A stretch of 45,941 bases of DNA from Planctomycetia bacterium (GTDB lineage Bacteria; Planctomycetota; Planctomycetia; Gemmatales; Gemmataceae): contig SYLG01000105.1 in assembly GCA_005808665.1 (NCBI GenBank), positions 1 to 45,941 of the forward strand. Direction: 5' to 3'. This document shows positions 4,657 through 45,941 of the stretch, in pieces; the stretch's first letter is position 1, and every line of letters starts with the position of its first letter. The notes under the pieces were generated by a model, which was not told the DNA's origin, made no database searches, and saw only the letters and a program-made list of their open reading frames with translations. The translations under genes were made by a program, and so were the position numbers.

Positions 4657-7104
4657 CTATTTCAGAATCCCCGGGAGATTGGAATAATCATCCGTCCACA
4701 CCCCAAAATCCCTATCAGGATTCAGGGGTGACCACTTTTCGGTCCAATTTTCGCCGTTGCGTTCAAAGGTGGATTCCATTTTGGCCAAAGAGGCAAAGGC
4801 GGAGGGAGAAGGTGTCATAACCACCCAATTGGTTCCATATTTGACCTCCTCGGCATGTTCAAATCCCCCTTGAATCATAGCCTTCATGCCCACTGCCACA
4901 GCCATGTTTCCCAGGACAGGTTCAAAATTCAAATACCGGTTGGCAATGTTTATGACCACAATTCCCTCCGGGGTGAGCTTGGATTTGTAGATTTCAAAGG
5001 CCTCTTTGGTGAGAAGGTGAACCGGTACGGCATCCGAGGTAAAAGCATCCATGAATATCAAGTCATATTTGCCATCCTGGGCCTGGTTCAGTTTGCGCCG
5101 GCCATCACCTAGCTGAATGTTGATTTTCACACCTCGACGGATCGCATCCGGAATAAAAGTGAAAAGGTCCTCCCTCCTGGTTGCAACCTCTACCACCGCA
5201 GGATCAATCTCAAAAAGATCAAGTGACCAATTGGTTTCCATGTAGGCCGCCAAGGTCCCCGTACCCACACCCAAAACACCAACATTAAGGGGGCGTTTCA
5301 GGGTGTTTGCTTTTTCCCGCATGGTTTCGAAAAGCTGGCCAATGGCACCCTTGTTGTGGAAGTAGGTTACTGTATCCCTTCGCCTTGCAATAGGTTCAAA
5401 GGCCTGCATGCCATGATTGGTCGTTCCATGAAGGAGTTTGTGATAAAGGGTACCATCTTTTTCTTTTTCGGCAATGATTTGAAAGGTACCAAAAAAGTTG
5501 CGTTCCTCATGGAGAATATCCAAATTTTTCGGAAGTTGTTCAAGAATGTGATCGCGTAAAAAGGCGGTCGGGATCCATTTGGTAATCCACTCGCGACCTG
5601 TTTCGAGGGGAAGGTAGTTAATGGCCAAAAGAAGTCCCCCAGATGCCAAACCAAATACAAATGTCAACCAGGTGAAGCCCTGTTGAAGACGCCGGGAAAG
5701 GACACTTTGGCCAGCTACCTGAATGACCGGGAGCATAAGGCAAGCCATTACGGCCATGAGTGGATATTCCACCACTTTGTGAAAAAGGACAGGAGCAATG
5801 ACTGTGTTGAATATTCCACCCAAAACGCCACCAAAAGACATCGCCAAATAGAAAAGGGTCAGATGGTCCACCGAGGGCCTCGTGCGGGCCAACTCGCCAT
5901 GGCAAACCATGGAGACCAGGAAAAGCAGAAGCAGGTGAACGGTTATGATTTCCACCTCACCAAGGCCGAGGGAATCCCGTAAAGCTGGGGCAAAAATGGT
6001 TCCCAAAATGCCAAAGGGAAGGAGGATAATCATCAGGTTGTGTTGACTTACAAAAGACCTGGAGGCAATTCCGGCTCCCAATAGGGAAAAACCAACAAAA
6101 AAGAACTCAACCAAACGCAAAGTGCCTCCTGTTCGAAGGAAGTCACCTAACCAACTGGGAAAGCCGTCTTCCTGAAGGGTAAATGCAGAAGCGGGGCCTT
6201 TAAACAGGAAAAGGAAATAGGTTGTGAGACCAAGGATTACCGGGCCGGTAAGCCAAAGGGGAATGCGGGAAAAAACCAAAATGAAACTAAGAAGGTAAAG
6301 GGCCAGGGGGAGGATCCAAAGCAAAGGAATGGCGGCAATGTCGGTGGTGATGTAGGTGGTGACTCCCAACATGACACTGGAAGGAACCATGCCTAAAACG
6401 GTCCAACATAGTATTTTTGACAGGGCCATTTTTTCAGAAGGGGCGGTTTCGGTATCCGGTCCCTTCTCATTCTCTGGCCTTAAGGAACCCATGGCAAATT
6501 TGCCCGTCCAAAGGATGAGGCCTGACAAAACCACAAATCCCATGAGCCAGGCAATACCCTGTCCAAAAACGCCAATCTTTGGTTCCACCCAAAAAGGGTA
6601 GGCAAGCAAAGCTACCATACTGCCAAGATTGCTGGCCCCATAAAGAAAGTAAGGATCGGTTGCATCCGGGTGATTTGTTTTGGAAAACCACCTTTGCAGC
6701 AAGGGGGCAGTGGCGGCAACCGCAAAAAAAGGAAAACCAGCCGAAAAGAACAGCACCAAAAGTAACCAGGGGACAGGGCTGGTCGCTTCCGGGGGCGGAT
6801 AGATTTGGGCTAGTGGGGCTATATCAAAACGAAGGAGAGCCAACGGGATCAGGGCCAGCGCCAAAACGATTCCATGAATCCGCCATTGTTTGGGAAGGTC
6901 AAACGATTTTCCAAGATAATGGGCATATCCATAGCCCGCAAGCAAAAGGGCCTGAAAAAACATCATGCAGGTATTCCATACCGCAGGCGTGCCTCCCAAC
7001 CAGGGAAGCAGGATCTTGCCCACCATGGGCTGTACAGCAAACAAAAGGAGGGCACTTGCCAAAAGTGTGAGGGCGAATGACCCGAGGAGCATAAACGGTC
7101 GCAA
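4657..7104 (-). CDS. membrane-fused spermidine-synthase-like protein, short paralogue (815 aa)
   Basis: It has the same architecture as the gene that follows. A multi-pass region (about 1-500) begins with SALLLFAVQPMVGKILLPWL and carries PYFLYGASNLGSM and FLVSMVCHGELARTRP, both shared almost word for word with the 1018-aa paralogue. A Rossmann domain follows, with VLGVGTGTLA at 610-619, FEIDP, GDGRR, and MDAFTSDAVPVHLL with Asp686. It ends shortly after WTDDYSN, so it lacks the extra C-terminal helices of its neighbour. The start is TTG at 7104, which matches the paralogue's N-terminal length; an ATG at 7092 is possible, and neither has a strong Shine-Dalgarno site. The probable role is transfer chemistry at the membrane using an S-adenosylmethionine-like donor. 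The substrate is unknown. Confidence 0.85.
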   Translation of the reverse strand: MRPFMLLGSFALTLLASALLLFAVQPMVGKILLPWLGGTPAVWNTCMMFFQALLLAGYGYAHYLGKSFDLPKQWRIHGIVLALALIPLALLRFDIAPLAQIYPPPEATSPVPWLLLVLFFSAGFPFFAVAATAPLLQRWFSKTNHPDATDPYFLYGASNLGSMVALLAYPFWVEPKIGVFGQGIAWLMGFVVLSGLILWTGKFAMGSLRPENEKGPDTETAPSEKMALSKILCWTVLGMVPSSVMLGVTTYITTDIAAIPLLWILPLALYLLSFILVFSRIPLWLTGPVILGLTTYFLFLFKGPASAFTLQEDGFPSWLGDFLRTGGTLRLVEFFFVGFSLLGAGIASRSFVSQHNLMIILLPFGILGTIFAPALRDSLGLGEVEIITVHLLLLFLVSMVCHGELARTRPSVDHLTLFYLAMSFGGVLGGIFNTVIAPVLFHKVVEYPLMAVMACLMLPVIQVAGQSVLSRRLQQGFTWLTFVFGLASGGLLLAINYLPLETGREWITKWIPTAFLRDHILEQLPKNLDILHEERNFFGTFQIIAEKEKDGTLYHKLLHGTTNHGMQAFEPIARRRDTVTYFHNKGAIGQLFETMREKANTLKRPLNVGVLGVGTGTLAAYMETNWSLDLFEIDPAVVEVATRREDLFTFIPDAIRRGVKINIQLGDGRRKLNQAQDGKYDLIFMDAFTSDAVPVHLLTKEAFEIYKSKLTPEGIVVINIANRYLNFEPVLGNMAVAVGMKAMIQGGFEHAEEVKYGTNWVVMTPSPSAFASLAKMESTFERNGENWTEKWSPLNPDRDFGVWTDDYSNLPGILK

Positions 7105-43386: not shown

Positions 43387-44325
43387 TCAATCCAATGTTA
43401 ATATTTCACCACCTGAAATGGTAGCCATAATAGGGATAATTCTTTTGTTGGAATAGTTGATAAATCGGACAGATCCGTCAACCGCGGCAAAATTGGCCCC
43501 GCCTTCATGAAGACTCCAGAAATGAAAACGGTCACAAGGGTTTTCCAGAATCCCGGGCCCCAGAGATTGGTTGGAATTTGCACCCGAACACGGATCCCCT
43601 TTGACAAACGGAGGTTGGGGAATATGTAAAGTGGTGTTTGGCCCACCAAATCGTTCTTCAATCAGCATTGAATACCATTGACCCGCTTGAAAGGATGCCG
43701 GAGGAGGGCGTTCGCCAAAAAGTAAAGTGTTGCTGGCACCATCGGTCATATCTGAAATTTTGGAACCAAAATCAGACCCAAATACTGAAGCCTGATAATA
43801 AGATCCAAAACCGTTTGAGGCGTCAGAGCGAACTCCATCAAACCCAACATAAGAACAAAATGAAGATTTGATATTAGAGTTTGTGATAATAGGAAATTTA
43901 AGCCTTGAATCAGCTGGGCAAATAAATCCATTGACCACTGAACTTTTAACTATATGCGGGGGATCCTGGGGAACCGAAAATGGGTTGTTAAGCGGCTGAA
44001 TCTGATTGGCTTGAATGGTATGAAACCAAAGTTCCTCCTGCCCGCAATAAGGCAAAATCAATACAAGCCATGAAATTCCCTTGATGTTCCCAGGATGCCC
44101 GGAGCCGGTACTGGAGGGGAAGCAATTGTAGGTAGCGTGGAAATTGTGGAGAGCCAAAGCAAGTTCCTTGGCCGCATTTTTGCATGATAACAGATCAGAT
44201 CCACGCCTTGCTAATTGAACAGCAGGCAATGTAATGCTTATTAATAAGCCAATTATACCAATGGAAATAACAAGTTCAATAAATGTAAAACCAGATTTTA
44301 TATTTTTTTGATATAAATTAATCAC
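43387..44325 (-). CDS. DUF1559 prepilin-like protein with canonical H-X9-DG motif
   Basis: The N-terminal signal KSG^FTFIELVISIGIIGLLISI has Gly(-1) and Glu(+5). The DUF1559 head follows: CKNAAKELALALHNFHATYNCFPS, then LILPYCGQEELW, with YVGFDGVRSDASNGFGSYY, MTDGASNTLLFGERPPP and the C-terminal LHEGGANFAAVDGSVRF, the full H-X9-DG motif. Length (312 aa) is usual. The start is GTG 44325, without a visible ribosome site. The gene is AT-richer than those to its left, increasingly so toward its 5' end, and converges on the rseP operon. Its relation to the pilus operon, which has its own DUF1559 gene, is unknown. Confidence 0.92.
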   Translation of the reverse strand: MINLYQKNIKSGFTFIELVISIGIIGLLISITLPAVQLARRGSDLLSCKNAAKELALALHNFHATYNCFPSSTGSGHPGNIKGISWLVLILPYCGQEELWFHTIQANQIQPLNNPFSVPQDPPHIVKSSVVNGFICPADSRLKFPIITNSNIKSSFCSYVGFDGVRSDASNGFGSYYQASVFGSDFGSKISDMTDGASNTLLFGERPPPASFQAGQWYSMLIEERFGGPNTTLHIPQPPFVKGDPCSGANSNQSLGPGILENPCDRFHFWSLHEGGANFAAVDGSVRFINYSNKRIIPIMATISGGEILTLD

Positions 44326-44474: not shown

Positions 44475-45032
44475 CTATTTTTTGAAATAATACCAAAGTC
44501 CGAATAATATTACAAGCAAAGAAAAGCCAGCAGAGTACCAATATATGTTTGAATAAGGTTCCTCGATTGACGGACCAGTGTATTGAATATTGCTTGTATT
44601 GCCATGAATAAGATTTGGTGGTTTATTTTGTTTAAGTTCTCCAAAATCTTCCATTTTTCCACTTTCCAAAGTTTTAAATACACGACCTTTTATAGTATCA
44701 CTTACCTGTATGTTTGGTGGAAAATTTAAAATTAAGTTCCTTGAAAAATCAACTTCATTTATATTCAAGTCAGTTAATACCAGTGTTTCAATTTTTTCAA
44801 TTTTATTGTTAACCATAAATATTTGTTTGCTTTTTCGAGGAAAAAAAAGGCCAGGTTTCATTTCTGTGAAATCCGAAACCTCGGTAATTTTGCCTAACGG
44901 TGTTTCATTAGATAAAAAGTACGGTGAAATTTCATATCTTGTAGTAAGGAAATTTATCTTTGGGTCTAATGTAATCTCATGTTTGTATTTTCCTTTAACA
45001 TGAAATTCAATTCTTATTAAATTATTTTTCAA
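44475..45032 (-). CDS. C-terminal part of an amber-interrupted gene (185 aa)
   Basis: The predicted start, TTG 45032, has no ribosome binding site. The frame is open upstream for another 29 codons up to the TAG at 45120-45122, which ends the preceding ORF in the same frame. This portion therefore looks like the second half of one gene (44475-45596, 374 codons including the amber). It contains NNLIRIEFHVKGKYKHEITLDPKINFL, a pattern reminiscent of LolA-like planctomycete proteins, then a soluble region and a C-terminal helix (IYWYSAGFSLLVILFGLWYYFKK). Composition is strongly AT-rich. If read-through does not occur, this half is probably untranslated. Confidence 0.6.
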   Translation of the reverse strand: MKNNLIRIEFHVKGKYKHEITLDPKINFLTTRYEISPYFLSNETPLGKITEVSDFTEMKPGLFFPRKSKQIFMVNNKIEKIETLVLTDLNINEVDFSRNLILNFPPNIQVSDTIKGRVFKTLESGKMEDFGELKQNKPPNLIHGNTSNIQYTGPSIEEPYSNIYWYSAGFSLLVILFGLWYYFKK

Positions 45033-45119
45033 TACTTCGCAATGTTTAAAAGTTCTGTAATTTTCCGCAAATAGATCATCTAGGTATATTGTTTTAAAAA
45101 GTTCAGATTGGTCATTGCT

Positions 45120-45596
45120 CTAGGGTGGTTTTATATTGTCTAACTTGAAAAGAATCCTTGCCTCTATATCTGTTCCATAGGCCAAAATGTTTGGGCTCTT
45201 TTGAATTAATCCATTGTAAATCATCTCTCCATAAGGTATCTTTTCTCCGAGATAATTTATATTTCTTGACAAATTTTTAATATAGCTTAACCCAATCATA
45301 ATCCCATTCTTGCAAAGTCCATCATGCCAGGAATCGTCCTCTTTTTCGTACCTGAAACGAAAACCTTCTTTATTTTTCCAGTACATTCCTGAACGAAATA
45401 GCTTCTGCTCCGGATGCCCCTCCCCGTTTTCCTTCGTTACAATAATTTTACTTTCACACGAAAATGATGTTATCAAATCGACGGAAGTTTTGTTCTTTTT
45501 TGCGATTTCCTTGGCGTACTCAATATCTTTGGCTTTCAAATTGGCAGTGGATGGTAAAACATAGATCGAAAACATAAACCAATTTAATAGTTTCAT
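45120..45596 (-). CDS. N-terminal part of an amber-interrupted secreted protein (158 aa)
   Basis: Starts at ATG 45596, with AAGGA ten nt upstream. The N-terminus MKLLNWFMFSIYVLPSTANL is a signal peptide. It is followed by KDIEYAKEIAKKNKTSVDLI and a beta-rich part (FRSGMYWKNKEGFRFRYEKE) resembling LolA-like lipid-carrier folds seen in many planctomycete paralogues. The ORF stops at TAG 45120-45122 (DNIKPP*), and the same frame continues without another stop to 44475. I judge the pair to be one gene with a nonsense mutation or a programmed read-through. The LolA-like assignment is tentative. Confidence 0.6.
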   Translation of the reverse strand: MKLLNWFMFSIYVLPSTANLKAKDIEYAKEIAKKNKTSVDLITSFSCESKIIVTKENGEGHPEQKLFRSGMYWKNKEGFRFRYEKEDDSWHDGLCKNGIMIGLSYIKNLSRNINYLGEKIPYGEMIYNGLIQKSPNILAYGTDIEARILFKLDNIKPP

Positions 45597-45941
45597 ATCA
45601 CCATCCTTGTTTTTATCTATTTATTTTTATAGTTATCCTAAAATTGTAATTTTAAAGATACTTGGATGGTTGTTTTAATATTATTGGTTGCAATTTGACC
45701 ATTTTAATGTCATTGCCATTTCTCCATTTCGGTCCTTTTACAATTGGTAAATGGACTTTACGATTGATTTATTGAAACATCAGTTAAATCTGGTTGCATT
45801 TTTGTATGCGTTCACGGGTTTTAGTGCTAAACGGGTATAGGAATAGTAGCCAGGGTCCCGATTTTCTCAACCCTGTAGTGGGATGAGTCGAGGTGAGGGA
45901 AGCTTTTTCCTGAAGGATTCGATGCATGATCTGATGTATTC
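45597..45941. other. 345-bp right-end stretch without a clear gene
   Basis: AT-rich for the first ~200 bp, where the promoter and leader of the minus-strand gene at 45596 must lie (a TATAAA-like element is near 45630). GC rises after about 45810. A plus-strand frame opens at ATG 45883 (MSRGEGSFFLKDSMHD) and runs off the edge, but it lacks a ribosome site and is too short to judge. Confidence 0.5.
45900..45913 (+). repeat. 14-bp direct repeat, right copy
   Basis: A second exact copy of AAGCTTTTTCCTGA (see 43350-43363), at the right end of the AT-rich segment where composition returns to normal. Confidence 0.35.

Follow-up and report, generated by a model that had tools for sequence, protein, structure and literature searches.

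Systems related to the interrupted gene

The closest described proteins to the gene product analyzed here are those of the LolA/LolB/RseB superfamily (models PF17131, LolA_like, and TIGR00547, lolA). The likeness lies in a predicted half-barrel fold, and some relatives of the protein match PF17131 or lolA weakly; neither the protein itself nor either of its halves has a significant Pfam or NCBIfam match. It differs from the superfamily by its linkage to DUF1559 genes and by a C-terminal membrane helix whose end is basic. The same helix distinguishes it from soluble LolA, and a role in lipoprotein transport is putative for this protein.

The gene carries an in-frame TAG, for which two kinds of known system can serve as a comparison. 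Ordinary bacterial nonsense pseudogenes likewise have a single in-frame stop in an otherwise conserved frame and belong to accessory families with paralogues; this gene differs in showing no other decay yet and in having its critical base known from the assembly. Pyrrolysine and other types of amber recoding also show an in-frame TAG within a conserved frame. However, neither PylS nor a CUA tRNA was found in this genome, and the stop is not common to the homologues.

Architecture of the locus

The window, meaning the whole stretch of 45,941 nucleotides that was analyzed, contains the following features, all on the minus strand.

45120..45596 (minus strand): 5′ part of the gene, with a hydrophobic, signal-peptide-like N terminus plus the first LolA-fold barrel half, up to the TAG (profile positions 12–95)
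45120..45122 (minus strand): in-frame TAG (amber), codon 159, at alignment column 212, in the loop between strands 151–154 and 168–171
44478..45119 (minus strand): 3′ part of the same gene, with the second barrel half, a linker and the C-terminal membrane helix with basic end (profile positions 145–345, from residue 170)
44475..44477 (minus strand): the gene's own terminal stop, TAG too
43387..44325 (minus strand): next gene downstream, a DUF1559 (PF07596) prepilin-like protein (PF07596 E 2e-31, N_methyl 8e-5, H-X9-DG-CTERM 5e-6)

The first ORF (45596–45120) runs from an ATG to the TAG and encodes 158 amino acids; the second (45032–44475) starts with a TTG, encodes 185 amino acids and lies in the identical frame. 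The 29 codons between them (45119–45033) are open and contain no ATG, GTG or TTG ahead of TTG 45032. Joined, the frame 45596–44475 encodes 373 amino acids with TAG 45122–45120 as its sole interruption, and a TGA follows four codons past the terminal TAG at 44477–44475. The original prediction of two ORFs in one frame, separated by 29 open codons and broken only at 45120–45122, is thus exact in its coordinates. Downstream of the TAG, 214 codons follow without a stop, where dinucleotide-preserving shuffles average 15.5 (0 of 2000 shuffles were stop-free), and each of the other five frames over this region contains 6–23. Over the whole joined frame, one stop is present (none other in 372 codons at 32% GC) versus 26 expected in shuffles. 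A Shine–Dalgarno-like AAGGA lies 7 bases upstream of ATG 45596 (AAGGATGGTGATATG). No such site was found at the proper distance upstream of TTG 45032, which agrees with the earlier claim that the second ORF has no ribosome site.

The GC content of the gene (44475–45596) is 32%, as opposed to about 43 to 44% in two paralogues and about 52% across the window. A relative from the same genus, on contig G001:C63, is also at 32%.

Homology to single-ORF relatives

Fifteen relatives were aligned with the window protein (alignment A1), and the profile was then rebuilt minus the window protein. It matches the first half over residues 10–98 (profile 12–95; 23.9 bits; E 8.5e-7 at Z=1000) and the second half over residues 170–369 (profile 145–345; 106.7 bits; E 5.6e-32 at Z=1000), with shuffled controls below 0 bits. 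The second match sets in at residue 170, ahead of residue 189, where the earliest restart (TTG 45032) lies; the stretch from the TAG to the TTG is therefore part of the protein. Residues 99–169 are the least conserved part and lie outside the strict profile match; in the alignment, a D-I-E..L-F-K-L motif upstream of the TAG and Y-L-D-D-L-F downstream are still traceable.

Relatives were surveyed in 95 genomes of the same taxonomic family, 36 of which gave matches. Stop-free full-length or near-full-length matches occur in about 20 of the 95 and as two paralogues in the genome under study (4.48 Mb, 186 contigs, listed as 100% complete). These paralogues (contigs C74 and C85) are single ORFs of about 355 to 360 amino acids, each followed by a DUF1559 gene like the window locus. 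Among the strong near-full-length matches in the 95 genomes, the window copy is the only one with an internal stop and therefore not a single uninterrupted ORF. No separate homologues that end at the TAG or start near 45032 were seen among the relatives, which would have been the pattern contradicting the original prediction of one gene split by a single amber codon; instead, the relatives are single ORFs that span the TAG position. The alignments thus support one gene cut in two by one stop codon. With similarity over both halves, the window copy is, as judged from its sequence, a broken member of the DUF1559-linked LolA-fold family and not a non-member.

The window copy lacks a close orthologue in a gene tree of 16 tips, the two genomes of the same genus included. 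With a length of 1.81, its tip exceeds the other 15, and its root distance is inside the range of the intact members. A degenerate scan of the genome_contigs collection returned one match, from Splendidivirga, with 42 residues matched; its own translation looks like an unrelated methyltransferase, and it was discarded.

Predicted fold of the joined protein

The model predicted for the joined protein (pLDDT 79.9, pTM 0.74) opens with a hydrophobic N-terminal helix, continues as a curved sheet over residues 45 to about 300 and, after a linker modeled with low confidence, closes with a C-terminal helix (350–372). Among solved structures, residues 26–306 superimpose best on LolB of Porphyromonas gingivalis (9tpm) with Z 16.1 and rmsd 4.6 Å over 217 aligned residues (VIA). 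The model also matches a DUF1329 protein (4z48; Z 15.4, 3.3 Å, 206 aligned) and LolA3 (9tp6; Z 14.7, 3.1 Å, 199 aligned), and Foldseek relates it to LolA of Pseudomonas aeruginosa at 1.6e-7. The joined protein is hence predicted to form one LolA-superfamily half-barrel with a C-terminal helix. Of the layout proposed earlier, the LolA-like body and the C-terminal membrane helix are borne out by the model, and the signal peptide is suggested by the look of the sequence and by the aligned hydrophobic N termini of the relatives.

The TAG (residue 159) falls into a mid-barrel loop between strands 151–154 and 168–171, and a single barrel is thereby divided between the two fragments. The window copy has about 10 residues more in this loop than most of the aligned relatives, which fits a place where the sequence is free to change.

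Several relatives (L002–L008) share a tail of T-x-E-P-x-S ... W, a hydrophobic helix and a basic end, resembling a C-terminal sorting signal. NCBIfam CTERM models match the tails of the relatives weakly.

Nature of the in-frame TAG

The two parts share one frame, one family and one predicted fold, and no UAG-reading machinery was found. The locus is probably an exported, membrane-anchored LolA-superfamily gene, upstream of a DUF1559 pseudopilin-like gene, that was inactivated by a recent TAG nonsense mutation at codon 159. Translation would start at ATG 45596 and stop at the TAG, giving a 158-residue fragment that would contain neither the second barrel half nor the membrane helix and should not fold properly. 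The remainder after the TAG would probably be left untranslated in useful amounts, and any product from TTG 45032 would come without the signal peptide and the first barrel half. The window copy keeps 8 of 10 well-conserved positions upstream of the TAG and 22 of 31 downstream, much as the intact relatives do. Since conserved residues are kept on both sides and no stop has arisen in the 214 downstream codons, the break appears to be recent. Unlike a long-dead gene, the copy has not drifted. A nonsense mutation of recent date, an error in the sequence and, with the lowest likelihood of the three, read-through would all fit this. We infer a real TAG base, known from one assembled sequence, a recent break and the loss of the product.

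A wrong base in the draft contig, with the gene of the organism intact, is a possible but clearly less probable explanation. It is favored by a draft assembly of 186 contigs, by the position of the gene close to a contig end (its start is 345 bases from position 45941) and by the otherwise perfect preservation of the gene. However, the frame is kept, hence the error would have to be a substitution, and no long homopolymer lies beside TAG 45120–45122. Furthermore, among the larger same-frame pairs of the window, no second case was recognized in which homology flanks a single stop on either side. Substitutions are rarer than indels as consensus errors, and a mutation is therefore favored over a sequence error. 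The least probable of all readings is that of two separate genes, or of a split protein with assembling halves. The shared frame and the intact downstream ORF with its possible TTG start would suit it, but this TTG has no ribosome-binding site, the family homology already starts upstream of it at residue 170, no relative was seen split likewise, and the second half would be without a signal peptide.

Amber read-through, in which the ribosome inserts an amino acid at the TAG and the full protein is made, perhaps in small amounts, is very unlikely. Both sides of the TAG still appear constrained as coding sequence, the TAG lies in a loop that would tolerate a variable residue, and a working read-through gene would account for the absence of further decay just as well as a recent mutation. 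The following observations speak against it. The tRNA survey combined RF00005 loci and ARAGORN, with 150 of 215 loose candidates scored (65 unscored), and a pattern search. The suppressor tRNA that the original prediction proposed to look for did not emerge: ARAGORN, run on all 45 tRNA matches listed, gave none with the anticodon CUA, and of the three places that match a pattern of CUA anticodon loop plus T-arm, one belongs to tRNA-Arg(TCT) and the other two do not represent tRNAs. This survey is incomplete, as tRNA-Trp(CCA) and tRNA-Ser(TGA), which the cell should need, are missing from the tRNA list. Release factor 1 is present and uninterrupted in this genome, PylS (TIGR02367) was not found there at E ≤ 0.001, and 8 of the 26 window frames of at least 200 codons end in TAG (a mechanical count that may include non-gene frames). 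No Rfam family and no stable RNA structure were found at the TAG site or after it (structure z 0.49). In-frame TAG in related genes, likewise proposed earlier as a check, was not found at this position in the strong matches of the 95 family genomes; the only other TAG among the family matches is in a weak, doubly interrupted one (G113:C295). The ten results listed by a literature search include no report of amber decoding in this phylum. From the tRNA, release factor 1, PylS, frame-end and RNA evidence, the TAG is most likely a stop here. A low-level switch, in which a short form would be exported unanchored and read-through would give the anchored full-length LolA-fold protein, is less likely still. 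Of the three causes originally put forward, the nonsense mutation and the sequence error thus remain, with the former favored, and read-through is disfavored.

Codon usage was also scanned for other read-through genes. The same-frame neighbors at 4659 and 29024 are ordinary adjacent genes, each with a start codon shortly past the stop; others are antisense to long genes. The scan is insensitive: the codon score is weak for AT-rich genes, and the target itself has no positive score. Ribosome hopping, with take-off at CCC and landing at the nearest CCA or CCT, was inspected by eye and rejected, with both landing frames running into TGA within two codons.

Two unusual tRNA loci were noted in this genome. 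The one at G000:C43:29487-29559 (L093) is called as tRNA-Cys with the anticodon ACA, alongside a normal tRNA-Cys(GCA). The other, at G000:C68:42191-42256 (L096), is a marginal match of 29.2 bits, called Arg(CCT) by ARAGORN with an odd anticodon position, and is perhaps a degraded tRNA.

Apparent interruptions elsewhere in the two linked families lend support to a nonsense mutation at this locus. A weaker relative in another genus (G036:C232:2297-3314) appears to be in two pieces, with TAA and TGA as the interrupting codons; copies of the DUF1559-linked LolA-fold family thus seem to break now and then. Two DUF1559 copies of this genome (G000:C134:23977-24219 and G000:C20:210-737) have one in-frame TGA each; hence, breaks or errors are found in that family as well.

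DUF1559 linkage and implications

A DUF1559 gene is present at 12 of the 15 loci of the relatives; at the other three, none lies within the short flanks covered. The window locus shares this arrangement, with 43387–44325 matching PF07596. This genome has 53 PF07596 matches; as the family is expanded in planctomycetes, the organism is probably one of them. The intact family probably comprises an exported LolA-fold body tethered by the C-terminal helix. At the membrane, such a body could bind lipid or a substrate that is lipidated or hydrophobic, and it perhaps assists the DUF1559 pseudopilin-like partner.

As it stands, the finding matters little, since it concerns a single broken copy, in one draft genome, of a fast-evolving accessory family with paralogues. 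If read-through were shown, the case would be unusual in having no dedicated suppressor system. For annotation, both ORFs should be merged into one interrupted gene. The membrane-anchored LolA-fold family itself, recurrent beside DUF1559 pseudopilin-like genes and without a good Pfam or NCBIfam model, could be named.
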